DNA of 62,454 nt from Vasconcelosia minhoensis LEGE 07310. Its GTDB lineage: Bacteria; Cyanobacteriota; Cyanobacteriia; Phormidesmidales; Phormidesmidaceae. Below, piece after piece: positions 22,382 to 38,596 of this stretch; position 1 is the stretch's first letter; every line of letters begins with the position of its first letter. The stretch is from positions 1 through 62,454 of the forward strand of contig NZ_JADEXG010000026.1 in the NCBI RefSeq assembly GCF_015207255.1, in the 5' to 3' direction. The translations under genes were made by a program, and so were the position numbers. The notes under the pieces are model-generated. The model was given only the letters and a program-made list of their open reading frames with translations. It made no database searches and was not told the DNA's origin.

Positions 22382-23743
22382 TTATGGGCCAATCGGCAGC
22401 CGGATTGTAAAGCTACTGCCTTTGCCGAGCTGGCTCTGTACTTGGATGTTGCCGCCGTAGGAATGCGCGATCGCGATTGCAATCGATAATCCCAATCCCG
22501 ATCCGCCGCTCTGACGAGATCGATCCTGACCCACCCGATAGAACCGACCAAAAATACGGTCCTGGTCTGCTGGAGCAATCCCAGTGCCAGTATCTTCTAC
22601 GGTAATCAGGGCTTGTCGTTCGGATTGCTGAAGCTGAATCATGACTTTCCCCTCAGGCGGAGTATGCTGCAGGGCATTGCTCACGACGTTTAGCACCAGC
22701 CGGTAGAGATGGGCTTCATTTCCCATAGCCGGAATTGGGATATCGGGCTGCTCAAGCATCAGATGAATGTGCTTCTTCAGCGCCAGAGCGGCCAGCTCTT
22801 CTTGAATGTCGCTGAGAATATCGCGCAGGTCACAGCAGGCAATCTGAGACGGGCTCTGGGTATCCAGCCGGGACAGCAGTAAGAGGTCGCTCACTAACGT
22901 GGTCAGGCGTTGATTTTGACGGGCGATGACCTGGAGCGTCTCGCGCGCTTCGGAATCGGAAATTTGGGGAAGTCGGATTACCGACTCTACTGTTGCTCGC
23001 ACTGCTGTAAGAGGCGTCCGCAGCTCGTGGGCAGCATCGGCGGTAAACTGCTGGATTTTACTATACGACGTCTGTACCGGCCTCAGCGCTACCCCTGCCA
23101 GCCACCAGCTGGCGATCGCAATCAATGCCATCGTGATGGGCAAGCTCAGCCAGATAATCCAGCGAACCGCTCTTAAGTAGGCGGCAAAGTCGTTATAGGA
23201 ACGCCCGACGAGCAAGGTTCCTAGCCGAGCTTGGTCATCTAAAGCATACAGCGGCAGAGCAACCTGGCGATATAGGTTACCCTGGCTGTCCCGCAGGGTT
23301 TGCCAGGATGATGCGCTATAGGCTACCGGCAACTCCTTTGCAGAGATACCCGCTATGGCAATCAAATCCTCATTGGCAGAGAGCACCCGAACATAATAGC
23401 TGCTCCGATACAGGTCTCGGTCGTGATGGCTGGGCAAGGGCTCAACAGGTAAGCAGCGCCCGGCTGCGCATAGCGTGAGTAGCCGGCGGGGCGTAATCGC
23501 ATCGATTGAACGGTTTGCGGTCAGGGTCGTCTCTAGCGCATCATGGATCGGTTCAGCCACAGCTCTGAGTTCTCGATCGGCGGTTACCTGATGGGCATGG
23601 GCGATCGCCTGGTAAACGCCAATCCCGCTCAGCCCCAGTACCGCCGCCATGACGCTGGTATACCAGGCGGTGAGCTGCCAGCGGCTGCGGCGAAAGAGCT
23701 TATTCGGCTTTGAAGCGGTATCCCATCCCATAGACGGTTTCAA
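22382..23743 (-). CDS. rppB: sensor histidine kinase, RppB/NrsS type
   Basis: A 453-residue membrane histidine kinase. Two membrane helices (about 28-50 and 190-215) flank a periplasmic domain of about 140 residues. That domain has a pair of Cys in CAAGRC and His residues in PSHHDRD, plausible metal ligands. The H-box is AHELRTPLTAVRATVE; N, G1 and G2 boxes read NVVSNALQH, DTGTGIAP and GGSGLGLSIA. RppB/NrsS in Synechocystis senses nickel and redox; here it lies beside a copper region, so the ligand is uncertain. Its start overlaps the regulator gene; ATG 23731 is an alternative. Confidence 0.9.
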   Translation of the reverse strand: MKPSMGWDTASKPNKLFRRSRWQLTAWYTSVMAAVLGLSGIGVYQAIAHAHQVTADRELRAVAEPIHDALETTLTANRSIDAITPRRLLTLCAAGRCLPVEPLPSHHDRDLYRSSYYVRVLSANEDLIAIAGISAKELPVAYSASSWQTLRDSQGNLYRQVALPLYALDDQARLGTLLVGRSYNDFAAYLRAVRWIIWLSLPITMALIAIASWWLAGVALRPVQTSYSKIQQFTADAAHELRTPLTAVRATVESVIRLPQISDSEARETLQVIARQNQRLTTLVSDLLLLSRLDTQSPSQIACCDLRDILSDIQEELAALALKKHIHLMLEQPDIPIPAMGNEAHLYRLVLNVVSNALQHTPPEGKVMIQLQQSERQALITVEDTGTGIAPADQDRIFGRFYRVGQDRSRQSGGSGLGLSIAIAIAHSYGGNIQVQSQLGKGSSFTIRLPIGP

Positions 23744-24392
23744 TCAGGTGATCACAGCCATACTGTCCCAGCTTACGGCGTAACAATCGCATCTGGGCTG
23801 CCACGACGTTGCTATTGGGTTCCGCTCCAATTTCCCAAAGCTGGTTTAACACCTGATCGCGGGTGAGAATTTGGTTGGGGTGCTCCATCAAATATTGCAG
23901 CAGCTGAAACTCTTTTTGGGTGAGTTCAATGGACTGTTCTGAAGTTTTGCCAGGTCGGAGGAACGCGACTCTGCGATCGCAGTCCAGCAGCAGCGGCCCA
24001 ATCTGAATTTGGGCCGGCTTGAGGTCGGGCGATCGCCGTCGCAGTGCCCGCAGTCGCGCCAGCAGCTCAGCCATGCTGAAGGGCTTGACCAAGTAGTCAT
24101 CGGCCCCCGCATCGAGCCCGGTAATGCGATCTTCAATTCGGTCTTTGGCCGTCAGGATGAGGACCGGCAGAACGTAGCTACGTGACCTCAGCCATTGACA
24201 CAGCGCGACTCCCGACAGGCCGGGCAGCATCCAGTCGAATATCCCGACCGTGTATAGCGTAACGTCGCTTTCTAGGTAGGCCAGGGCCTCATCTCCTGAC
24301 TGTACCCAGTCCACCACGTAGGCCTCTTGGGTCAGGGTACGCTTGATGGCTTTACCCAGATCAGGTTCGTCTTCAACCAGTAAAATGCGCAT
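23700..24392 (-). CDS. rppA: OmpR-family response regulator, RppA/NrsR type
   Basis: A 230-residue regulator: receiver domain (about 1-120) and winged-helix DNA-binding domain (about 130-228). The receiver has the acidic pair in VEDEPDLG, phosphoacceptor Asp in IFDWMLPGLSG, and Lys in DYLVKPFSMAELLARL. The output domain shows ELTQKEFQLLQYLMEH, the recognition-helix region SNVVAAQMRLLRRKLG and IETVYGMGYRFK. The kinase gene follows with a 44-nt overlap. ATG 24392 gives the standard MRILLVEDE start. It is the best candidate to bind the OmpR-type direct repeats found further right (inference). Confidence 0.93.
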   Translation of the reverse strand: MRILLVEDEPDLGKAIKRTLTQEAYVVDWVQSGDEALAYLESDVTLYTVGIFDWMLPGLSGVALCQWLRSRSYVLPVLILTAKDRIEDRITGLDAGADDYLVKPFSMAELLARLRALRRRSPDLKPAQIQIGPLLLDCDRRVAFLRPGKTSEQSIELTQKEFQLLQYLMEHPNQILTRDQVLNQLWEIGAEPNSNVVAAQMRLLRRKLGQYGCDHLIETVYGMGYRFKAE

Positions 24393-25414: not shown

Positions 25415-26872
25415 CTAAGCCTGCTGAATCTCCAGAATTCCCATCATGCCGCGATCTTCATGGTCTAAAACATGGCAGTGGTAAACAGTTTTACCAATGT
25501 AGTCCTGAAACGGGATGCGGATGCGAACGTTCTCTCCGGGACTCACCGACACGACATCTTTCCAGGCCAGGTAGGGCGAAGCCTGACCATTTTGGCTCAC
25601 CACCTGAAACTTGTTGACATGAACATGAAAAGGATGGGTCATCGTGCCGGTATTGATAATTTCCCAATCTTCGACTGTATCGAGGGCCACCTGAATATCG
25701 ATGCGGCTGGGGTCAAATGCCTGTCCGTTGATTAGAAACGCCATGCCCATGCCCATCCCGTGATTTAGGGTGAACTGGCGCACGGTCTGCGGCTCTGGCA
25801 GCGGCTCAACGGAAATCAGCTGGGTAGGTAGTGGAATCTGATCGACTGAGCCGCTGTAGGTCAGCGTGGCAATCGGTTCTGCATTCTCCTGACTTGAAGC
25901 ACCGCCCATCGTGTTGCCGCCCATCATGCCACCGCCCCTTCCCTGAGCCGGGTTAAAGGGCTGATTGAATAAGCGGTACTGCCCGGGTTCGCGGTTTCCC
26001 TGTACGAGTACTTCGACTCGTTCGCCAGGCACTAAAACCAGATCCCTAAGCTCAACTGGGGCTGAGATAGCGCCGCCGTCCGTTGCAATTAGATAAAACG
26101 GGTGGCCTTCTAAAAACAGCCGAAAAAATCGCGAAGAGGAGGCATTTAGCAGCCGCAGCCGCAACAGGCCGCCCTGAGGAATTTGCAAACCTGGATTAAA
26201 CTGCCCGTTGACCGTGAGCAGGTCGCCCATGCGTCCAGTCATTTGAGCCATATGCCCCGGTGAGGGAATGTTGCCGCTGCGATCGAGAGCAAAATCTTTG
26301 AGAACGAGAAATTTTTCCTGAGCCGCTTTGACTTCGGGAATTTCGTCGAGTTCGCCCCGGACAATGAATAGTCCGGCCAGGCCGCCAAAGAGCTGCTCGG
26401 CCACCAGTCCATGATAGTGCGGATGGTACCAGAACGTTCCAGCGGGGTGGTTTTGAGGCAGCTGGAACTCGTAAGTATGGCTTTCGCCGGGGGGGATTTC
26501 TAGGAAAACGTTGTCGCCGGTACCAGTAGGGGGAATATGCAGCCCGTGATAGTGGAGATTGGTAGGCTGGCTGAGCTGATTGGTAAAGCGAACCTGAATC
26601 GTATCGCCGTGTTTAGCCTCTAGCCTGGGACCAGGCATCCGACCATTGTAGGTAAGCAGGTTGGCACTGCGATCGCCCAGCTGTACTTGCTGCGCCCTGG
26701 CTTCTAAATCGACTTTTAGCAACCCCCCTTCGCTGCTGACGATTTGGGCCTGAGCCAGGGTGGAGCCAGGCGAGCTCGCCTGGGGCGATTCTCTAGAACA
26801 CTGAGACAGCAGAATAGCCGCAGTCGCCCCCGAGCTTAAGGTCAAAAATTTACGCCGTTTGATAGCACTCAT
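25415..26872 (-). CDS. multicopper oxidase, Tat-exported
   Basis: A 485-residue CueO/laccase-type oxidase that probably oxidises Cu(I) or phenols in the periplasm. The start at 26872 gives a twin-arginine signal (KRRKFLTLS) followed by a lipobox-like LLSQC, so it may be a Tat lipoprotein. All copper-ligand motifs are present: HYHGLHIP, FWYHPHYHG, HPFHVH and VYHCHVLDHEDRGMM. Two Met/Gly-rich stretches (GGGMMGGNTMGG, HGMGMGMAF) recall the Met-rich copper loop of CueO. It is followed by the truncated TVP38 gene. It diverges from the PEP-CTERM gene across a 193-nt spacer. An in-frame start at 27133 exists but would run far into the divergent gene. Confidence 0.95.
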   Translation of the reverse strand: MSAIKRRKFLTLSSGATAAILLSQCSRESPQASSPGSTLAQAQIVSSEGGLLKVDLEARAQQVQLGDRSANLLTYNGRMPGPRLEAKHGDTIQVRFTNQLSQPTNLHYHGLHIPPTGTGDNVFLEIPPGESHTYEFQLPQNHPAGTFWYHPHYHGLVAEQLFGGLAGLFIVRGELDEIPEVKAAQEKFLVLKDFALDRSGNIPSPGHMAQMTGRMGDLLTVNGQFNPGLQIPQGGLLRLRLLNASSSRFFRLFLEGHPFYLIATDGGAISAPVELRDLVLVPGERVEVLVQGNREPGQYRLFNQPFNPAQGRGGGMMGGNTMGGASSQENAEPIATLTYSGSVDQIPLPTQLISVEPLPEPQTVRQFTLNHGMGMGMAFLINGQAFDPSRIDIQVALDTVEDWEIINTGTMTHPFHVHVNKFQVVSQNGQASPYLAWKDVVSVSPGENVRIRIPFQDYIGKTVYHCHVLDHEDRGMMGILEIQQA

Positions 26873-27065
26873 AGGTATGGTCGTGTGAACGGTAAAAGTC
26901 TCCGATGCTAGCTTCTGTAAGTAACAAGTCCTTACAAAGGATAAAGAATGGTTTATCTTCCCAGGATTTATAAAAGCTGTGACATAAAATTCATCCAAAG
27001 AAAAGATAAGTATCCATTGCTTTAAAGAACTGATATTGCAGAACCACTCCTGGGAATTCAACGCT

Positions 27066-28082
27066 ATGAAAAACAAGATTTTGAGCTTTAGCATAGGCGG
27101 TGTTGGTATGTTGCTCAGTACCGGATTTACCATATCCGTTCAAGCGGCTGAGCTGAAGCGAGTTTCTTCGGTAGGAGATTTCTACGAGGCTTACGGTCCT
27201 TCAGACAGTTTCTCACCGGAATCTAAGGCAATTATCGACGGCCTGTTTGGCTATGCTGACCCTTTTATGGGAGCGTCTGGCTTGCAAAATGCGGCTGCCG
27301 CTGGTTATGTGCCGATGACTAAGGACCTGCGATTTCATGGGACTCATTGGTTCAACCCAGCGCTATTTCTCAGCAATTCGTCTCCAAACCCCTTAGCGCC
27401 TACTGGTTTGAACTTTGACCAACAGGGCAAATTGGTCGCTGTATTTTGGCCTGAACAAAAGTATGCCATTACAGCGGAGGTCTTGAATAGCTTGGCCACT
27501 GCCGACCCGGCTAGCTTGCCTGCTTTGTACGAAGGCGTAAAAACAGCGACGCTCAAGTCTAAGCCTGACATTTTAGATCCTTTTGGCGATGTAGACTGGC
27601 ATTCCCATGAAAACGTTTTGATTGAAAATGTGGGCAATCGCGACCCGGCTACTGGTGCTTATACCGGCGACGTTCTGTTTAGACAGTCGTTGACAAATGA
27701 AAACTTTGTTGGCGAAGTTCTAGCAGCTTTAGCCGATCCTGAAGTTACGATCGCGCCTTTTGAATTTTCCTCTGATCCCAGCGTTTATCCTCCTTTTAAT
27801 ACGCTAGCGGACGCAGGTTTTTACATGGCTCATATGTGGTTAGGACTGGAAAATCCCGATGGCCTATTCGCGGGCACTCATCCAGCCGTATCGATTGATG
27901 CGCCTGGAGAGCATACAACGTTCGAAGATGGTAGCGGCGGTCATCACGGCCATTCGCCCGATCCGGGTCATGAAAAACCGGGTCATGTTTCAGTTCCAGA
28001 ACCGTCTTTTGTTTTGGCACTCTTGGTAGTAGGTGCCTTCGGATTCCGGAGTCGGCGCAGACAGCTCCAGCATCAGCCTTAG
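27066..28082 (+). CDS. secreted PEP-CTERM protein with His-rich tail
   Basis: A 338-residue secreted protein. It has an N-terminal signal peptide ending near SVQAAE, and a C-terminal sorting signal: VPEPS, then a hydrophobic helix, then RSRRR, typical of PEP-CTERM proteins processed by an exosortase. The body has conserved-looking His-containing segments (RFHGTHWFNPALF, DVDWHSHENVLIENVG, FYMAHMWLGLENPDGLFAGTHP) that could bind metal. Just before PEP lies the His-rich stretch GGHHGHSPDPGHEKPGHV. I know similar secreted proteins of unknown function from other phyla but cannot name the family. It diverges from the multicopper oxidase. ATG 27066 is chosen over 27036. Confidence 0.75.
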   Translation: MKNKILSFSIGGVGMLLSTGFTISVQAAELKRVSSVGDFYEAYGPSDSFSPESKAIIDGLFGYADPFMGASGLQNAAAAGYVPMTKDLRFHGTHWFNPALFLSNSSPNPLAPTGLNFDQQGKLVAVFWPEQKYAITAEVLNSLATADPASLPALYEGVKTATLKSKPDILDPFGDVDWHSHENVLIENVGNRDPATGAYTGDVLFRQSLTNENFVGEVLAALADPEVTIAPFEFSSDPSVYPPFNTLADAGFYMAHMWLGLENPDGLFAGTHPAVSIDAPGEHTTFEDGSGGHHGHSPDPGHEKPGHVSVPEPSFVLALLVVGAFGFRSRRRQLQHQP

Positions 28083-28285
28083 GTCGCTGACTCGCCGATC
28101 AACGCAAGCGATGCATTTGACATCTCTGGAGAAGTGTAGCTGCGGCACTCTCCAGAGCCCATCATGCTGCCCTGCATCATGCCGCCGCGCATCATTCCTG
28201 CCATTGCTAGAAAGCCCACAAGTAGGGTCGCGACAATACCGACGACAAAGCCTACTGAACCCGTCACTAGAGCTTTGCTGTCCAT
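28079..28285 (-). CDS. small Met-rich membrane protein
   Basis: A 68-residue protein with one membrane helix (about 5-32, LVTGSVGFVVGIVATLLVGF) followed by a Met-rich stretch MAGMMRGGMMQGSMMGSGEC, which could bind Cu(I) or Ag(I). The remainder is short and polar. ATG 28285 has AGGAAG about 7 nt upstream. Its stop overlaps the stop of the convergent PEP-CTERM gene. A TGAAAT direct repeat lies 161 nt upstream. No named family. Confidence 0.65.
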   Translation of the reverse strand: MDSKALVTGSVGFVVGIVATLLVGFLAMAGMMRGGMMQGSMMGSGECRSYTSPEMSNASLALIGESAT

Positions 28286-28445
28286 AGTTAATCTTCCTTT
28301 ACAATATGGTTTTGGCGGGGGATTACTCAGTGACATTCTCCCCATCGCTCTTAATATAAACTCTCCAGTTGGCTGTAGAGTCAAGCGGATTCTTAGAAAG
28401 ATGCCTTGATTCATCGATCAACCCGGTCAGCCTAGACCTAAATGA

Positions 28446-28462
28446 TGAAATCAGAATGAAAT
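28446..28462. promoter_or_regulatory. OmpR-type direct repeat (copy 1)
   Basis: TGAAAT-CAGAA-TGAAAT, two perfect hexamers 11 bp apart. It lies between the small Met-rich membrane protein (minus strand) and the copper gene remnants (plus strand). Reading toward the Met-rich gene it is ATTTCA-N5-ATTTCA, the same orientation as the other two copies have toward their genes. Confidence 0.7.
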
Positions 28463-28777: not shown

Positions 28778-29357
28778 ATGGCTATTACAGATAATACAAT
28801 CGACAACCGTACAGATGCTGGGCATCACAAAGGAATGCAGGGTAGCTACGTCAGATACTTTGCGATGATTGGGACCTCAATCGTTACGATGTTCTTCTTG
28901 ATGTACCTACATTCCTATCAAATTCTTGATCATGCTTGGTTTAGTGAAACGCGGGCTTATATGGCCCTAATTATGGGTGCCGCAATGATGGTTATCATGT
29001 TAGGGTTTATGCTCAACATGTACAAGAGCAGAAAAGCTAACATCGCAATCTTTGTTGGGGCCATCCTGCTGTTTGGCGCAGCCTTAGGGCTGGTGCGCAG
29101 CCAAATTACGGTGAGCGATGTAGACTACATGGAAGGCATGATTCCTCACCACTCAATCGCAATCCTAACGAGCGAGCGAGCTCAGATCAAAGACATTCGT
29201 GTCCGTGAAGTTGGCTGATGAGATTATCGCATCACAGCGCCGAGAGATTAATGAAATGGAGTGGCTGATTGCCGATATCAGAGAAAATGGAGTGGCAAGC
29301 ACACCAGCTGAGGTAGAGGCAAGACCGCTGCCAGACTTTTCCTCACGTCCTGAATAA
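28778..29357 (+). pseudogene. DUF305 membrane protein, frameshifted
   Basis: The N-terminal 146 codons encode four membrane helices and then the DUF305 core with MEGMIPHHSIAILTSERAQI, a His/Met motif tied to copper handling. The frame ends at a TGA at 29216. Removing one base at about 29210 restores the family sequence: VRE continues as LADEIIASQRREINEMEWLI and on to a TAA at 29357. So an intact gene is one base away. It is either a true frameshift or a sequencing error. Reading through gives about 192 residues, a normal size for this class. Confidence 0.75.
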
Positions 29358-30938: not shown

Positions 30939-33900
30939 CTAAGGCAGATCTAGACGAGGCAACTCAGCCCGCTTTGAGCGCCGCCGCATCCGTTTGAAAA
31001 ATTCTGTAGCATCATCGACAAAAGAATAGACCACCGGCACGACCACCAGGGTTAGCAGCGTAGAGACCACTAGCCCCCCCAAAATGACAGTCGCAATCGG
31101 CGAATAGGCGTCCATGCCCGTCTCAGGAAAAAAGGCCAGGCGCACAATCACAATCAGGGTCGTCAGGGTGGTCATGACAATTGCTTTGAGCCGGACTGGG
31201 CCTGCCTGACGAATCGCGATCGCGCGTGGCACTCCTTCCTGCCGCTTCGCTAAAATCAGCTCCAGTAGCAAAATCGCGGCTGACAGCGAAATGCCTGAGA
31301 GGATCACAATACCCAAAATCGATACGGTCGAGAGCGTTTGATTAGCCAGCAGCAGTGCCCCAAAGACGCCCACCAGCTGTAAGGGTACGGATAGCATCAT
31401 CACCAGCGGCTGCACAAATGAGCCAAACTGGATGACCAAAATCAGGTAAAGCAGCACCAGTGAAACCAGCAGTCCCTTCAGCAGTCGCCCAAACTCAATC
31501 ATCATGTCCGTCATATCGCCCATTGAGTCGATGCCATAGCCGGGCGGAAAGTCAAGTTCTGCCCCTGCCTGCATCGCGATCGCCATCGACAAATCCATCG
31601 AGGCCGGGCCATTTTTGCGGTAGTAGCCATTTACATAGACCACCCGTTTCCCATTCACGTGCTCAATCAGCGTTGGCCCCTGCTGGCGCTCCAGCGTTGC
31701 CACCGTACTCAGCGGCACTTGTTGACCCGTGCGACTGGTAATATAGGTCTCAGAGAGATCTTGCACCGTACCGCGATCGGCCTCGTCGTAGCGCACTAAA
31801 ATTGAATTTTGCCGCAGGTTGGGGCGGTTGTAGTACCGACGAGTGAACCCGCCGTTGAGCGCATAGCGAGCCTGTTCTGACACCTCTCGAATGTTTAAAC
31901 CCAGCTCCTGGGCTCGGCGGCGGTCGATCTGCAGCTGATACTCCGGCTGAGAATAGGCTGAGCTCGTAAAGGGCATCACGATATCAGGATTGGCAGCGGC
32001 AATTTGTTGCACCCCTTGTGCCAAACGGTAGAGCACATCCAAGTCATCGCCATAGACGGCCAGCTGAATTGGGGCCGCAGAGGTTGCCATCACATCTACC
32101 CCCATCTCTTTAATCGCCAGGCGACGAATACCAGGAATCGTGCGCTTCGCTTCGGCGTCAATGCCGTCCATAATTTCCCAGATATCTCGCTGCCGCTCAG
32201 TCAGTGGGGTAATCGTTACCGTCATCGCCGCTGTATTGACGCCGCCCATGCTGTAGCCACTGAAGTAGGTACTATTGCGAGTCAGTTCAAAGCCCACCTG
32301 GGAGGAGACTTTTTCGACCTCAGGCTGTTCTAACATTATTTGCTCGAACCGAGCAGCAGCGGCATCGGTCGCCGTAAACGAAGTGCCCGCCTCCATTTCT
32401 AAGGCAGCCATAAACTGGCCCGAGTCACCCAGCGGCATCATCTCTTGGGGGATGAAGCTATACAGCGCGATCGCCAGCACCACCGAGGCCGCCGCTACGG
32501 CCAGCGTAATCTCTCGATTTCTTAGACAGCGATCCAGCAGCCAGGCGTATCCCCGCTCTAGCCGTCGGAAGCCGTAGCGCACCGGAGTTGTCAGCACCTG
32601 TAGCCAGGTACGACGTTGAGGCCTGGCGGCAAGGGGTTTCAGAGTAAAAGCCGCAACCAGCGGAATTAGCGTAATCGACACCAGCAGCGAGGCGATAAAG
32701 GCAAACACCATCGGCCAGACAATGCCCACAAACATCAGCCCAGTCAGCCCCCCGGCCAGGATAGTGGGCAGCAGTGCCGCAATCATCACGCAGCTGGCCG
32801 CTGCACTCGCCAAAAAGACTTCTCCAGTCCCCTTGATTGCTGCCTGCATCGGCATTAGCCCCTGCCTCAGCTTTTGGTCAATCGAGTCGAGTACAATAAT
32901 CGAGTCGTCAACTAGCTTGCCAATGGCCATCATCATGCCAATCAGCGTCGAGGAGTTGAGCGACATGCCGATGGGGATAAACGGCAGCGTCGAGAGCGCC
33001 AGGCTGGTGGGGATGGAAATCATGATGATGGCCGTAGCGCGAAAATCTTCTAAGAAGAGCAAAATCACGAATCCAGCCAGGACGACACTGACCAGCAGCT
33101 CTTGAAAAGTGCTGCTGAGAATCAGGTTGACCAGGTAAGAATTGTCATAGGCTTCTTGAAATTCTAAGCCGGGATATTCTGCTTGCAGGCTTTCCAGCGC
33201 TGCCCTGACCCGCTCGATTACCTGAGGCGAACTAGAGTCAGGCTTTTGAATGACGTTCACCGCCAGGGCTGACTCACCGTTATAGCGGTAGCCGCTACGG
33301 CGCTCTTCGTAGGTGTCTTTCACCGTAGCCACATCGCGGACATACACCACCCGTCCCTCCTGTTCCAGGATTGGATAGTCCATCACGGTAGCGGCCTCTA
33401 GCGCTCGCTCATCGGTACGCACCAAAATCTCGCTGTCGCCCTGGGTCAGTACGCCTGCGCCCTGGCTGACGTTGTTGGCATCAATCGCATCGCGCACCTG
33501 CAAAATTGACAAGCCATAGGCGGCGAGCTGCTGGCGATCGACGACTATCTGCAGCTGGCGGCGATAGCCGCCAAAGATAGAAACGGCCTGCACATTCTCG
33601 ACTTGGGTCAGTCGATCAACCAGGACATTGTCGGCAAACTCCCTCAGCTGTAGCGGATCCCACCCGTCGCCCCTGAGTGCCAGAGTTAACACCGGTCGAT
33701 TGAGCGGGTCAATCGGCAGCACCCAGTAGGTTCGAGAATTGATGCCATCCAGCTGCAGGTCACCCTCAGCAGCCGTCATGACGCTCTGGACAGACTGCAC
33801 GGCTTTGTCAATGTCGCCGCCCCAGGCAAACTGAATCGTCACCAGAGAGCTATCCTGCTGGGAGCTAGAGCGAATAAACCGCACGCCGTCCAGCACGCTG

Positions 33901-34118
33901 AGCCGCTGTTCGATGGGCTTACTAATATAAGCTTCTACCTCGGCGGGGGATGAGCCCGGCGCCATCGTCACTATAGAGACCAGCGGGCTTTCGACGTAGG
34001 GCATCATCCGCACGGGCAGAAGAAACAGCGTCAGCAGCGATAGCATGACCACTGCGATATAGACTGCTACGACCACAACCGGGTTCTTGATCGACCAGCG
34101 GGTAAAAAACTCTTTCAT
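30939..34118 (-). CDS. RND efflux transporter, inner-membrane permease
   Basis: A 1059-residue pump of the RND superfamily, likely expelling metal ions or small molecules to a partner adaptor. It has the usual 12 membrane helices and two large periplasmic loops; the HAE/HME start is SIKNPVVVVAVYIAV. TM4 holds IGKLVDDSIIVLD, with the DD pair of the proton relay. TM10 reads GISLSAAILLLELIL and lacks the Lys seen in drug pumps such as AcrB, while the Cu-pump Met triad cannot be placed with certainty. The C-terminus is basic (RMRRRSKRAELPR). It follows the adaptor and lipoprotein genes on the same strand, so it is the last gene of that unit. Confidence 0.93.
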   Translation of the reverse strand: MKEFFTRWSIKNPVVVVAVYIAVVMLSLLTLFLLPVRMMPYVESPLVSIVTMAPGSSPAEVEAYISKPIEQRLSVLDGVRFIRSSSQQDSSLVTIQFAWGGDIDKAVQSVQSVMTAAEGDLQLDGINSRTYWVLPIDPLNRPVLTLALRGDGWDPLQLREFADNVLVDRLTQVENVQAVSIFGGYRRQLQIVVDRQQLAAYGLSILQVRDAIDANNVSQGAGVLTQGDSEILVRTDERALEAATVMDYPILEQEGRVVYVRDVATVKDTYEERRSGYRYNGESALAVNVIQKPDSSSPQVIERVRAALESLQAEYPGLEFQEAYDNSYLVNLILSSTFQELLVSVVLAGFVILLFLEDFRATAIIMISIPTSLALSTLPFIPIGMSLNSSTLIGMMMAIGKLVDDSIIVLDSIDQKLRQGLMPMQAAIKGTGEVFLASAAASCVMIAALLPTILAGGLTGLMFVGIVWPMVFAFIASLLVSITLIPLVAAFTLKPLAARPQRRTWLQVLTTPVRYGFRRLERGYAWLLDRCLRNREITLAVAAASVVLAIALYSFIPQEMMPLGDSGQFMAALEMEAGTSFTATDAAAARFEQIMLEQPEVEKVSSQVGFELTRNSTYFSGYSMGGVNTAAMTVTITPLTERQRDIWEIMDGIDAEAKRTIPGIRRLAIKEMGVDVMATSAAPIQLAVYGDDLDVLYRLAQGVQQIAAANPDIVMPFTSSAYSQPEYQLQIDRRRAQELGLNIREVSEQARYALNGGFTRRYYNRPNLRQNSILVRYDEADRGTVQDLSETYITSRTGQQVPLSTVATLERQQGPTLIEHVNGKRVVYVNGYYRKNGPASMDLSMAIAMQAGAELDFPPGYGIDSMGDMTDMMIEFGRLLKGLLVSLVLLYLILVIQFGSFVQPLVMMLSVPLQLVGVFGALLLANQTLSTVSILGIVILSGISLSAAILLLELILAKRQEGVPRAIAIRQAGPVRLKAIVMTTLTTLIVIVRLAFFPETGMDAYSPIATVILGGLVVSTLLTLVVVPVVYSFVDDATEFFKRMRRRSKRAELPRLDLP

Positions 34119-34191: not shown

Positions 34192-34662
34192 CTACTGGGC
34201 CTCCAGCATAAAGTGGGCTGTCCCTGCTTTTTCGCCTTCGTCCACAGCGGCGTTGATGGCCCAGGGGCCTTCCATACTCAAATAGGTTTGCACCTCGTAT
34301 AGGCCCGGTTCGGCTCCAGGGGAGACTGTTGTCTCCGTCATCATCGGCTCCATTCCTTCCATTGCCATAGAAACATCAACCTTGAGGCTATCTGTGGTCA
34401 CAGGCTCGCCAGTCGCCGCGTCTTTGACTTCTAGAATCATTTCTGTATCGCCCATTGGCACAGAATCGTGAGGGCTAACCAGACTAATTTCAACATTGCC
34501 TTCGCTGGTCGATTCCATCCCTTCCATTTCGGGCATGGTGGCATCGGCAGACTCGGCGGCGTCAGGTGTCGCGTCTGCCGCTGTCGTCTCTGGCTCTGAG
34601 GTATTGGTACAGCCGGTGGCAATAATGCCAACTGTGATCAGGCTTAGCAACAGTTTTTTCAT
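34192..34662 (-). CDS. FixH-like domain lipoprotein
   Basis: A 156-residue exported lipoprotein (lipobox IIATGCTN, Cys at about 18). A Thr/Ala/Asp/Met-rich linker (about 20-52) has MPEMEGMES. Residues 55-156 form a YtkA/FixH-like beta domain (SLVSPHDSVPMGDTEMILEV, ATGEPVTTDSLKVDVSMAME, GLYEVQTYLSMEGPW). This is clearly related to the C-terminal domain of the adaptor encoded just upstream. ATG 34662 is preferred because it starts the signal peptide. Function: possibly a periplasmic chaperone or metal-binding partner of the pump (inference). Confidence 0.8.
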   Translation of the reverse strand: MKKLLLSLITVGIIATGCTNTSEPETTAADATPDAAESADATMPEMEGMESTSEGNVEISLVSPHDSVPMGDTEMILEVKDAATGEPVTTDSLKVDVSMAMEGMEPMMTETTVSPGAEPGLYEVQTYLSMEGPWAINAAVDEGEKAGTAHFMLEAQ

Positions 34663-34708
34663 AGATCGATCCAGGATAAAGAGTAGGACTTGTGTGAGCA
34701 GCGAAAAC

Positions 34709-36460
34709 TTATTTGACAAGTAGGCTGAGGCGCGCTTTACCAGCCTGTTCGGCAGCGGTGACGGTGGCTTCTAGCGTCCAGTCCCCTTTCATCCCAAGAA
34801 AAGTGCTGACCTTAAACTCTCCGGAGCTGTCAGCAGGTTCAAGCGCCACCTTGGCGGTCATCGGAGCCATGTTTTTCATCGGCATGGTGAGATCCACCGT
34901 CAGGTCGTCAGTGGTGATAGCCAATGGTTCCCCAGTCTCAGAATCCTTCAGGGCAATGGTAAATTCAGCTTTACTGCCTGATTTCAGGTTGGCAGGGTTG
35001 ACCAGCGCGACCTCAAGGGTGCTGGACTCAGCACTTGCAGAAATTTCTGCTGGATTGCCTAGCGCATCGACAATAGTAACTTGACCGTTTTCCATCAGAC
35101 GGCTGTGGCCGGAGGTAATCACCCGATCGTTCGGCTCTAGACCATCGGTAATTTCAACGCGATCGCGACTGGTCAGCCCAGGGGTCACCTGTCGTCGCTG
35201 AGCGGTTTCCCCATTCACGACCCAAACCGCCGGTTCGCCATTGAATTCAACCAGCGCCTTTTGGGATACCGATAGAGCATTATCACGGCGCTGGATAATC
35301 ATTTCCATATCCACAAACTGCCCCGAAAGCAGCTGCTGATCGGGGTTATCGACAACGGCTTCAACCGTCACTGTGCGCGTTGTCGTCTCGGTTTGGGGAA
35401 AAATGCTAGTAATTTCACCGCGAATGACTCCGGTATCCGCACCGGGTACCTTGGCCAAAATCGGCGTCCCGACCCGAATCCGGTTGGCATCTTGCTGGGC
35501 CACATTGGCACGCAGGCGCACTTTCTGATAGTCACCAATTTTGAAAATCCCCATGCCGGGCTGTACGACCACTCCCGGATCGGCCATCCGGGCTTGAACG
35601 ATGCCGCTGATTGGGGAAGTAATTTGGGTATAGCTCTCGAAAGCAGAAGCGGTGCCCACCTGGGCCTGAGCGCGATTGGCTTGAGCCTGGTCACTGGCAA
35701 CTCTGGCCTGTAGACGAGCGAGCTTAGCATTCGCCCCTTGCAACATTGATTCCTTAGCAACGACCTGGGAGATCAGCAGATCATACTGGTCTTGCGAGGT
35801 AGCCCCTTCAGCGGTGAGGCGGGCAAAGCGATCGCGCTGAAGGCGCAGATAGTCTAGATCGGCCTGAATCTGATCAATTTGCTGCCGTTGCTCTTCGACT
35901 TCTAGCTGGCCAGCTTCTACCGTCGATGACAGCGCCGCCGCCGCTGCCTCAGCTTCATTGGTTTGGCTAACCCGTTCAATCGCTTCCAATGTAGCTAGCG
36001 TCTGCCCAGCGGCGACCCGATCACCCGGATAAATTTCGTAGTGGGAAAGCTGCCCAGTCACCCGGGGATACACCGTCACCTCGGTGTAGGGATAAATTGC
36101 CCCCGTGTAGCTGACGCTCGCCTCTAGCTGAGTGGGCTGCACGACTTCTACCGTAACCGGCGTTGGGTTAAAGGCTCCATCCACCCCCATCATATCGCCG
36201 TGACCCATGCCCTCCATACCCGACATGCCTTCCATCCCAGACATGGCCATCGACCTAAAAATATTGGTGGTGACTAGAATGCCTGCGGCTAGGGCTGCGA
36301 ACACGCCCACGCCGAGTAGTGCCTTGCCAGATGCTTTCCACCAGGGGAGCGGGGGCGCTGGAGGCTCGTACATTTCAACCTTTGATAGCGATTCTTCTAA
36401 TCCCGCCTCCTTAGTTGACTCAGGCGTTTCAGCTGACTCGGATGGATGACTCATCGGCAC
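34709..36460 (-). CDS. RND periplasmic adaptor with C-terminal FixH-like domain
   Basis: A 583-residue membrane fusion protein. It has one N-terminal membrane helix (about 43-68), then a Met-rich stretch (MAMSGMEGMSGMEGMGHGDM, about 72-91), then an HlyD-type core: the lipoyl/barrel start VTVYPRVTGQLSHYEIYPGD, a long coiled coil (about 165-275), and the second half FESYTQITSPISGIVQAR. Residues 485-583 add a YtkA/FixH-like domain (LTVDLTMPMKNMAPMTAKVA). That domain is uncommon on an RND adaptor. It is first in the unit adaptor-lipoprotein-pump. ATG 36454 is an alternative start. Confidence 0.9.
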   Translation of the reverse strand: MPMSHPSESAETPESTKEAGLEESLSKVEMYEPPAPPLPWWKASGKALLGVGVFAALAAGILVTTNIFRSMAMSGMEGMSGMEGMGHGDMMGVDGAFNPTPVTVEVVQPTQLEASVSYTGAIYPYTEVTVYPRVTGQLSHYEIYPGDRVAAGQTLATLEAIERVSQTNEAEAAAAALSSTVEAGQLEVEEQRQQIDQIQADLDYLRLQRDRFARLTAEGATSQDQYDLLISQVVAKESMLQGANAKLARLQARVASDQAQANRAQAQVGTASAFESYTQITSPISGIVQARMADPGVVVQPGMGIFKIGDYQKVRLRANVAQQDANRIRVGTPILAKVPGADTGVIRGEITSIFPQTETTTRTVTVEAVVDNPDQQLLSGQFVDMEMIIQRRDNALSVSQKALVEFNGEPAVWVVNGETAQRRQVTPGLTSRDRVEITDGLEPNDRVITSGHSRLMENGQVTIVDALGNPAEISASAESSTLEVALVNPANLKSGSKAEFTIALKDSETGEPLAITTDDLTVDLTMPMKNMAPMTAKVALEPADSSGEFKVSTFLGMKGDWTLEATVTAAEQAGKARLSLLVK

Positions 36461-36538
36461 GGTGACCCAACAGTAATAGCTCCGGCGTTAGCTAGGCCGG
36501 TACTGACTCATACAGCTCTGAACAATACGGACTAATTG

Positions 36539-36555
36539 TGAAATGAAGGTGAAAT
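36539..36555. promoter_or_regulatory. OmpR-type direct repeat (copy 2)
   Basis: TGAAAT-GAAGG-TGAAAT, two perfect hexamers 11 bp apart, 79 nt upstream of the adaptor gene start. Read on the adaptor's strand it is ATTTCA-N5-ATTTCA. Confidence 0.75.
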
Positions 36556-36830: not shown

Positions 36831-36847
36831 ATTTCATCCTTATTTCA
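36831..36847. promoter_or_regulatory. OmpR-type direct repeat (copy 3)
   Basis: ATTTCA-TCCTT-ATTTCA (TGAAAT-N5-TGAAAT on the other strand), perfect hexamers 11 bp apart, 126 nt upstream of the gene at 36973 and oriented toward it. Confidence 0.75.
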
Positions 36848-36972
36848 TTTTTATCTGCAAAGCTAGCTCCGAAGTGCTTCGTAATAATAAAGGATAGCAG
36901 AGGGAAGTCCTTGCTGCTCCTGATTGAGCAACAGGTCTACAGAATCCATCGACAGGCAAGGAGTTTGAGGGT

Positions 36973-37410
36973 ATGGCTCAGCAAACACAACGGGGCCGGA
37001 TAGCCCTCACAGGCGGGACTGTAGCGGTTGGGGCTCAGCTCTTAGCTGCGCAAAGCGGATCAGCCCATACTGGCCCGCACGGAGATGAGGCTGCTCAGTC
37101 AGACAGGCCTGTGACCGATGAGCACCACGATCTGGCTTCCGAATCACCCCCTGCGGAAGTCTCATCAAATTTTGACAAAGCTGACTCTAATAGGACTAGG
37201 ACGCCAATGCGGTCAGCCAAGGTCAAAGACAGTGGGGGAGACGAAACCCCAGGCCAGAAGGTTACAGTGACTCAGGCATCTCCTGCAACCGCAGCAACCA
37301 AAGCTAGCCTGCCTGATGGATTTTCTATTGGTTTAGGAGAATCTCTGTTCGGGCTGGTTATCGCCGGGCCGTTTCTCTTAGCCTCTTTGAAAAAGCAGCT
37401 CCAATCGTGA
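36973..37410 (+). CDS. small anchored protein with His-containing segment
   Basis: A 145-residue protein. The N-terminus looks like a weak signal peptide (RIALTGGTVAVGAQLLAAQS), followed by AHTGPHGDEAAQ and DEHHDLASE, which carry His and acidic residues. The C-terminus has a membrane helix (about 117-138, SIGLGESLFGLVIAGPFLLA) with a short basic end. This topology suggests a periplasmic loop held at the inner membrane. Copy 3 of the operator-like repeat lies upstream. No named family; a role in metal handling is inferred from location. Confidence 0.6.
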   Translation: MAQQTQRGRIALTGGTVAVGAQLLAAQSGSAHTGPHGDEAAQSDRPVTDEHHDLASESPPAEVSSNFDKADSNRTRTPMRSAKVKDSGGDETPGQKVTVTQASPATAATKASLPDGFSIGLGESLFGLVIAGPFLLASLKKQLQS

Positions 37411-37432: not shown

Positions 37433-37723
37433 ATGAAATTTAATCAAGCCCGCCTGAGGCAGCTGCATAAAGCGCTGGTTCCGATCATGGTGCTGCCGCT
37501 GCTGCTCACTTTAACGACTGGAACGCTATTCCAATTCGCTGTAGCTGGCGAGCGCGCCGATGATTTCCTCTGGCTGCTTGCCTTGCATCGAGGCAAGTTT
37601 GGTCAGGTCAACCTGGAGTATGTCTACCCCATCCTCAATGCATTGGGGCTTTTGACCCTGATTGTCACAGGCTTCTTGATTTGGCTACAGTCCCCGAGCC
37701 GCAGCCGCAAAAAGCCTCAGTAG
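37433..37723 (+). CDS. small PepSY-associated helix-like membrane protein
   Basis: A 96-residue protein with two membrane helices (about 15-36 and 62-85). The N-terminal RQLHKALVPIMVLPLLLTLT resembles the first helix of PepSY-associated proteins (Lys-His start, TGxLFQ). LHRGKFG between the helices also matches that group. It follows the gene at 36973 by 22 nt and is probably in the same operon. Role unknown; PepSY proteins are often linked to metal uptake or reduction. Confidence 0.7.
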   Translation: MKFNQARLRQLHKALVPIMVLPLLLTLTTGTLFQFAVAGERADDFLWLLALHRGKFGQVNLEYVYPILNALGLLTLIVTGFLIWLQSPSRSRKKPQ

Positions 37724-38089: not shown

Positions 38090-38596
38090 ATGAATCGTCG
38101 GATGTTTACAGCTCAGTTTTTAACGGTCGGACTGGCTGCAGCTGGCGTCGGGCTGACGGGCTGTACTCTGGCCCAAGGGCCTGAGGCCGAGACTGGCGAA
38201 GATGGAGCTCAGGGGGTGATGACTCAAGAGCTGACGGTTTTTCGGAGTCCAACCTGTAGCTGTTGTGGAAAATGGATCGAGCATATGGAAGCAGCAGGCT
38301 TTCAGGTGCAGGACGAAATTGCAGAAGACATGACCGCTGTTAAACAGCAATATGGCGTTCCGGCCAACCTGGCCTCCTGTCATACGACCGTGGCGGATGG
38401 CTACGTCATCGAGGGGCATATACCAGCAGCATATGTACAGCGATTGCTCACCGAAAAACCCGACGTGGCTGGAATCGCGGTTCCGGGAATGCCCATCGGT
38501 TCTCCTGGGATGGAATCGGGGGACTACGTTGAACCCTACACCGTTTTTTCTTTTACCGAAGACGGCAATACAGAAACCTTTGTTGAACACTCATAA
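38090..38596 (+). CDS. DUF411 metal-binding lipoprotein
   Basis: A 168-residue periplasmic DUF411 protein; members are found beside copper and silver resistance genes and bind metal. The signal peptide (MNRRMFTAQF) ends in lipobox LTGCTLA (Cys at about 25). The conserved core shows SPTCSCCGKWIEHMEAAGF (metal-ligand Cys), NLASCHTTVADGYVIEGHIP (Cys-His), and GIAVPGMPIGSPGME near the end. It follows the gene at 37433 by about 370 nt on the same strand and precedes a small interrupted gene. Confidence 0.9.
   Translation: MNRRMFTAQFLTVGLAAAGVGLTGCTLAQGPEAETGEDGAQGVMTQELTVFRSPTCSCCGKWIEHMEAAGFQVQDEIAEDMTAVKQQYGVPANLASCHTTVADGYVIEGHIPAAYVQRLLTEKPDVAGIAVPGMPIGSPGMESGDYVEPYTVFSFTEDGNTETFVEHS

Follow-up and report, generated by a model that had tools for sequence, protein, structure and literature searches.

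A probable copper-inducible RND efflux operon with fused and free copies of a CrdA-type domain in a cyanobacterium

The locus studied here (positions 34192–36460) lies within a 62,454-nucleotide stretch of DNA from Vasconcelosia minhoensis LEGE 07310, hereafter called the window, which is part of a 5.26 Mb cyanobacterial genome. It encodes an RND periplasmic adaptor carrying a YtkA domain at its C-terminus, and a separate lipoprotein with this same domain as its mature part; the gene for an RND permease follows. Both domains are relatives of the Helicobacter pylori copper chaperone CrdA, and the operon probably specifies a tripartite RND exporter that is induced by copper and has its CrdA-type Cu(I) chaperone in duplicate, in which the pump may be fed copper by one tethered and one mobile copy. 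That a fused and a free metal chaperone serve a single pump was the core of the original prediction, and it is the best-supported reading of the locus, with metal binding and hand-over as its conditional parts and with YtkA/CrdA in place of FixH as the family.

The three genes are on the minus strand, in the order adaptor, lipoprotein, permease, with gaps of 46 bp and 73 bp between them. The adaptor, or membrane fusion protein, spans 34709–36454 and is 581 residues long when read from the conserved ATG at 36454, which I prefer to the upstream GTG at 36460 from which this gene, real in itself, had been read initially. The lipoprotein (34192–34662, 156 residues from the ATG at 34662) consists of a signal sequence, a variable linker and the YtkA domain, and 14 homologues all retain its lipobox cysteine (C18). 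The permease (30939–34118) matches the ACR_tran family with an E-value of 2.6e-208.

The adaptor belongs to the RND type, as indicated by its matches to HlyD_D23 (E 7.7e-27) and to the TIGR01730 RND_mfp model (188 bits, against a cut-off of 94.9). An AF2 model of this protein, generated from 17 sequences (mean pLDDT 68.7, and about 70–80 over residues 478–581), possesses the usual adaptor architecture, followed by a C-terminal beta sandwich, and its residues 95–465 match the folds of BesA, AcrA, MacA and CusB. At the N-terminus, a membrane helix is predicted in a hydrophobic sequence between residues 45 and 69 (36248–36322, minus strand). The C-terminal domain, residues 478–581, is encoded by 34712–35023 on the same strand, and includes the motifs MPMKNMAPM and GMKGDW.

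Pfam identifies YtkA (PF13115) in both proteins, at residues 477–564 of the GTG frame for the adaptor (E 8.1e-13), and with an E-value of 2e-16 for the lipoprotein. The two domains score 60.8 and 49.3 bits, above the curated cut-off of 25.9, and the genome has no other YtkA match. They are clearly related to each other, as had been proposed: BLASTP aligns adaptor and lipoprotein over 99 residues with 37% identity (E 3e-19), and the profile-profile comparison of the adaptor domain with the lipoprotein gives an E-value of 7.6e-32. The original label “YtkA/FixH-like” is thus correct in its first half only, since the FixH model has no match among the window proteins at E-values up to 0.1. One homologue, from Stanieria, did match FixH, yet below the cut-off, and FixH was rejected as the family; the RefSeq label for such lipoproteins is “FixH family protein”.

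I compared the modeled adaptor domain (residues 478–580) to known structures. The best match is H. pylori CrdA, with a Z-score of 10.8 in VIA for the apo form (9ll2; RMSD 2.2 Å, 96 aligned residues, 22% identity), and of 10.6 for the form with silver (9ll4; RMSD 2.5 Å, 96 aligned residues); a third CrdA structure is available as 9ll5. The fold alone would not settle this identity, because some filamin-type domains (Z 8–10.5), PcoC (8.8) and CopC (8.3) also score, but the sequence does. Both the lipoprotein profile (E 5.5e-10) and the adaptor domain profile (E 6.1e-6, hmmsearch) retrieve CrdA as their only credible relative of solved structure; a single-sequence phmmer search of the PDB with the domain gave no credible match. 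Fold model and sequence profiles together identify the domain as one of the CrdA copper-chaperone type, a point that the original prediction had overlooked. A CusF-type domain was also considered and was not found, the only Pfam match of the adaptor C-terminal domain being YtkA and its best structural match CrdA. By Pfam, AF2 model and structure comparison alike, the protein is an RND adaptor with a C-terminal metallochaperone-type domain, and a chaperone role for this domain may be inferred from its homology to CrdA.

CrdA binds Cu(II), with a measured affinity in the micromolar range, and a Cu(I) site made of Met69, 72, 75, 78 and 99 has been proposed for it (PMC9182242). The same arrangement, a methionine cluster and a distal methionine, can be read in the sequences of both window domains. 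In the adaptor domain, the five methionines concerned (524, 526, 529, 532 and 555, in the pattern MPMxNMAPM...GMxGxW) are all conserved, with a probability of 8e-5 for random placement among the conserved columns. In the lipoprotein domain, four of nine methionines are invariant (M99, 101, 107 and 130). The two motifs are unlike, with MxMEG...M in the lipoprotein against MPMxNMAPM in the adaptor, and the copper affinities of the two may therefore differ. The importance initially given to Met-rich stretches is borne out for these domain methionines, but not for the MEGM repeats, which are lineage-specific and located behind the membrane helix of the adaptor and in the linker of the lipoprotein. 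In the alignments, the Met-rich stretch just past this helix (residues 69–93; 36176–36250, minus strand) retains only M83, M88, M89 and a few neighbours (V91, G93). By its place it may be analogous to the N-terminal methionine site of CusB (PMC7558416).

The fused and free pair is not confined to this genome. I counted a pair where a genome has exactly two YtkA matches above the cut-off, in an adaptor-sized and in a small open frame, within about 4 kb, and this was found in 17 of 390 genomes of the class, where the frames measure 583–633 and 153–239 residues respectively; the same fusion does occur elsewhere, as the original prediction had proposed to look for. An eighteenth genome has a single YtkA match above the cut-off, in an unrelated large protein. 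The gene order adaptor-lipoprotein-pump is kept in most loci, the small YtkA gene being found beyond the pump in two genomes (G083 and G094), and before the adaptor in another (G211) and in a Nostoc plasmid. Beyond Cyanobacteriota, the search covered plasmids, one scan of genome contigs and 14 control genomes. All relatives of the locus found by the scan of genome contigs are cyanobacterial, and among plasmids the YtkA-adaptor fusion occurs in cyanobacteria only. Other cyanobacterial genomes (loci L021, L022, L023 and L025) encode a secreted His/Met-rich protein of roughly 300 residues with only a weak match to PF13115, and with two repeated regions (motifs HLHPEY/HIHPEY and YIHAHA); in L021, a copper-type operator lies upstream of its gene.

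The distribution is patchy even inside genera (12 of 59 genomes of the family), and copies of the operon are plasmid-borne in Stanieria, Acaryochloris and Nostoc, with two of these plasmids typed as conjugative. Both observations fit horizontal spread. In a tree of 51 YtkA domains, a single branch (support 90/93) divides all adaptor copies from all lipoprotein copies, implying that the pair arose before the operon spread through the lineages sampled. The neighbouring duplicate described initially is therefore real as a pair, but a recent local duplication is ruled out by this deep split. The domain is present throughout this clade of adaptors, a circumstance that would have spoken against a chaperone function had it come with another role, but no other role is known there.

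Upstream of the operon lies the direct repeat TTTCACCTTCATTTCAC (36538–36554, minus strand), a putative operator. In 14 of the 15 related loci for which upstream sequence is available, a repeat of the form TTTCAYNYYNATTTCA precedes the adaptor ATG by 64–98 bp, and the exception, L046, has the variant repeat TCTCATTCTGATCTCAT. Three such operators are found in the window, where 0.04 would be expected with up to one mismatch allowed, and only four in the whole genome; the second is at 36832–36848 (plus strand) and the third at 28445–28461 (minus strand). The only other exact site in the genome (G000:C135:47928-47944, locus L057) is beside the gene of an unrelated permease that contains a His-rich stretch. 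In Synechocystis, the same operator form is found without mismatch in the promoter of copM and with a single mismatch upstream of copB. Both of these operons respond to CopRS and copper, with the site given as TTCATN4-5TTCAT (PMC4182526). A two-component pair is encoded nearby in the window, on the minus strand: the response regulator (23700–24392) is 62% identical to Synechocystis CopR over 228 residues (and 37% to CusR), and the sensor kinase (22382–23743) is 42% identical to CopS over 443 residues. A CopR-type direct repeat before the operon and a CopRS-like pair close to it are the arrangement of a CopRS regulon. The operator alone is not proof of copper, because the same type of site is also present at the nickel nrs promoter of Synechocystis (PMC4182526).

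Other genes of the window likewise point to copper. A multicopper oxidase is encoded at 25415–27133 (minus strand), with HxH and HCH copper motifs in its translation. Downstream of the second operator, the genes between 36973 and 38596 (plus strand) probably form a second copper-induced transcription unit with it. Its last gene (38090–38596) encodes a DUF411 protein (PF04214, E 3e-26) with a CxCC motif, of a family which I take to be that of CopG. CopG binds copper through such a motif (PMC7558416). Upstream of the DUF411 gene are genes for a secreted or membrane protein (36973–37410) and for a PepSY_TM-like protein (37433–37723). Multicopper oxidase and DUF411 genes recur beside the operon in other genomes, with oxidase homologues flanking it in five loci (L035, L036, L037, L046 and L047), and one gene of the Stanieria plasmid cluster is annotated as a multicopper oxidase. 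The third operator precedes a small Met-rich membrane ORF (28079–28285, minus strand), which may be a shortened DUF305/CopM-type gene. Near it, a DUF305-like (CopM-type) ORF on the plus strand (28778–29218) has a frame break near 29205, its apparent C-terminus continuing in another frame; this is either a pseudogene or a sequencing error. Gene context, operator and CrdA homology, taken together, strongly indicate copper as the metal.

The pump itself is less typical. Its homologues in these operons form a single RND clade (support 100/100), and those sampled share 68–89% identity with the window pump. Compared to CusA, CopA, AcrB, MdtB and MdtC, which represent both HME and HAE pumps, the window pump is only 22–28% identical, and in the tree its clade joins HME at just 78/76 support, with long branches. 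Against the TIGR00914 model for CusA/CzcA it scores 353 bits, below the cut-off of 701. The residues aligned to the methionine path of CusA (M271, 391, 403, 410, 486, 501, 573, 623, 755 and 1009) are not methionines in the window pump, and M672 of CusA aligns to a gap, with M677 close by. These missing methionines mark CusA rather than all HME pumps, since Synechocystis CopA retains only one CusA Met-site residue. The pump clade has invariant methionines of its own, for example 624, 672, 677 and those of SMGDMTDMM (865–873). Its TM4 motif, GKLVDD, contains a lysine, replaced by arginine in the Nostoc plasmid copy. A structure model of the pump (pLDDT 42) was too poor and was set aside.

This divergence raises the alternative that the pump exports something else, such as a drug, a copper complex, a copper-binding metabolite, silver or nickel, with copper acting as inducer or cofactor only. 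In its favor, the permease clade is separate and about equally distant (about 25% identity) from HME and HAE pumps, its score against the CusA/CzcA model is as low as noted above, and the operator type is shared with a nickel promoter (PMC4182526). In H. pylori, CrdAB-CzcBA also affects tetracycline efflux (PMC12319023), and the substrate may therefore not be metal only. Nonetheless, a methionine site of apparent Cu(I) type is fixed in the adaptor, the neighbours are copper detoxification genes, and I regard a non-copper substrate as improbable.

In the exporter that I favor, copper excess would activate the CopRS-like system, which would bind the TTTCA-N6-TTTCA type operator and induce adaptor, lipoprotein and pump jointly. 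The lipid-anchored CrdA-like protein would gather periplasmic Cu(I) with its methionine cluster, and pass it to the fused domain of the adaptor. In known pumps, the membrane-proximal domain of the adaptor sits on the permease. The fused domain would consequently stay by the pump entrance, because it is from the membrane-proximal domain that the adaptor C-terminus leaves. From there it would either load the permease with Cu(I) or turn the pump on, in the way that CusA is served by CusF and by the N-terminus of CusB. The channel in the outer membrane would presumably be a TolC-like protein encoded elsewhere.

It is alternatively conceivable that the fused domain is solely a Cu(I) sensor or assembly switch, which opens or assembles the pump, and that the lipoprotein is only a periplasmic copper buffer. 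Direct activation of CusA by CusB has been reported, as has metal binding by the N-terminus of CusB alone (PMC4446572). At the aligned positions, the window pump lacks a methionine relay of the CusA type, and transfer could take place at the separate conserved methionine stretch in the N-terminal part of the adaptor. On the other hand, two versions of the methionine site in one operon, and the precedents of CrdA and SilB, fit carrying better, and the roles of sensor and carrier are not exclusive, making a pure switch unlikely. It is more improbable still that the lipoprotein serves the assembly of cuproenzymes (metallation of the oxidase or of cytochrome oxidase) and lies beside the pump only through a shared copper response: its YtkA relatives CtaK and YcnJ do support cytochrome oxidase assembly (PMC13344008) and an oxidase gene is often near the operon, but this gene is not always adjacent, and in most loci the lipoprotein gene separates the adaptor gene from the pump gene, and all 17 genomes pair it with the fused domain.

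Within the favored copper exporter, a bolder version is possible, which I put forward tentatively: the pump would represent an RND subfamily of its own, apart from the classical HME group, exporting Cu(I) without the CusA methionine ladder, through a two-stage CrdA relay of mobile lipid-anchored and adaptor-tethered copies. There would be six tethered copies per complex, if the CusB6-CusA3 stoichiometry applies.

Several elements of this design have been described separately. The H. pylori CrdA-CrdB-CzcB-CzcA proteins form a copper efflux system in which CrdA, a copper-binding lipoprotein, is a free copper chaperone (PMC9182242, PMC12319023). As in the window, CrdA is a free, lipidated protein of the same fold with a methionine cluster, encoded with an RND pump, and induction goes through a two-component system, the counterpart here being the CopRS-like pair. 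Unlike in the window, CrdA is described as a separate protein, with no mention of a fusion (PMC9182242, PMC12319023), the channel CrdB is included in the system, and its permease is referred to as a homologue of CzcA. In Cupriavidus metallidurans, SilB is an adaptor with a CusF-like C-terminal domain (PMC4446572), and hence also an RND adaptor ending in a metallochaperone domain whose fold occurs free as well. However, the SilB domain is a CusF-type OB barrel and that of the window a CrdA/CopC-like beta sandwich; the window adaptor is analogous to SilB in design, with an unrelated domain, and is not itself of the SilB type. Bacillus subtilis possesses a fused YtkA domain in YcnJ (CopC-CopD-YtkA) and a free one in CtaK, partly redundant in copper trafficking (PMC13344008). 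This parallels the presence, in one organism, of a fused copy and a free lipoprotein copy of the same domain family, but the YtkA domain of YcnJ is fused to a copper importer and serves cytochrome oxidase assembly, not RND efflux.

A further related system is the copper RND efflux of Synechocystis PCC 6803, CopBAC/CopMRS (PMC4335983, PMC4182526), which has the same two-component type and the same operator form. It is not the same thing: Pfam gives no YtkA match in CopB or CopC, and the window pump shares about 25% identity with CopA, which belongs to the HME pumps. The third gene of copBAC on pSYSX, copC (L050 13638-14117), encodes a poorly characterised, small lipoprotein-like product. Homologues of this CopC match PF13115 weakly (best E 3.2e-5), and a small CopC alignment matches the window lipoprotein with 92% probability, part of the matched region being in the signal and linker. 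Synechocystis CopBAC may thus include its own, distantly related lipoprotein of the YtkA type.

I found no description in the open-access literature of a YtkA/CrdA (or FixH) domain on an RND adaptor. The original prediction knew of no account of this architecture, and none was found for the combination of fused and free CrdA-type copies with an RND pump in one operon, which is what is new here; the concept is not wholly so, in view of the free CrdA encoded with its RND pump, the chaperone domain on the SilB adaptor, and the fused and free YtkA domains of YcnJ and CtaK. If the proposed function is correct, a copper chaperone tethered to an RND adaptor arose at least twice, with unrelated folds (the CusF type of SilB and the CrdA type), and this twofold origin would make hand-over at the pump entrance look like a general need. 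The idea of a relay from free to tethered copy and on to the pump is directly testable, because the copies share an operon and differ at few positions. As the pump falls outside the CusA-type family, the finding also raises the question of how copper is moved by an RND pump that lacks the methionine path of CusA. Finally, since the operon resides on cyanobacterial plasmids, including some that are typed as conjugative, copper tolerance of this kind may be transferable, which would be relevant to the use of copper-based algaecides.
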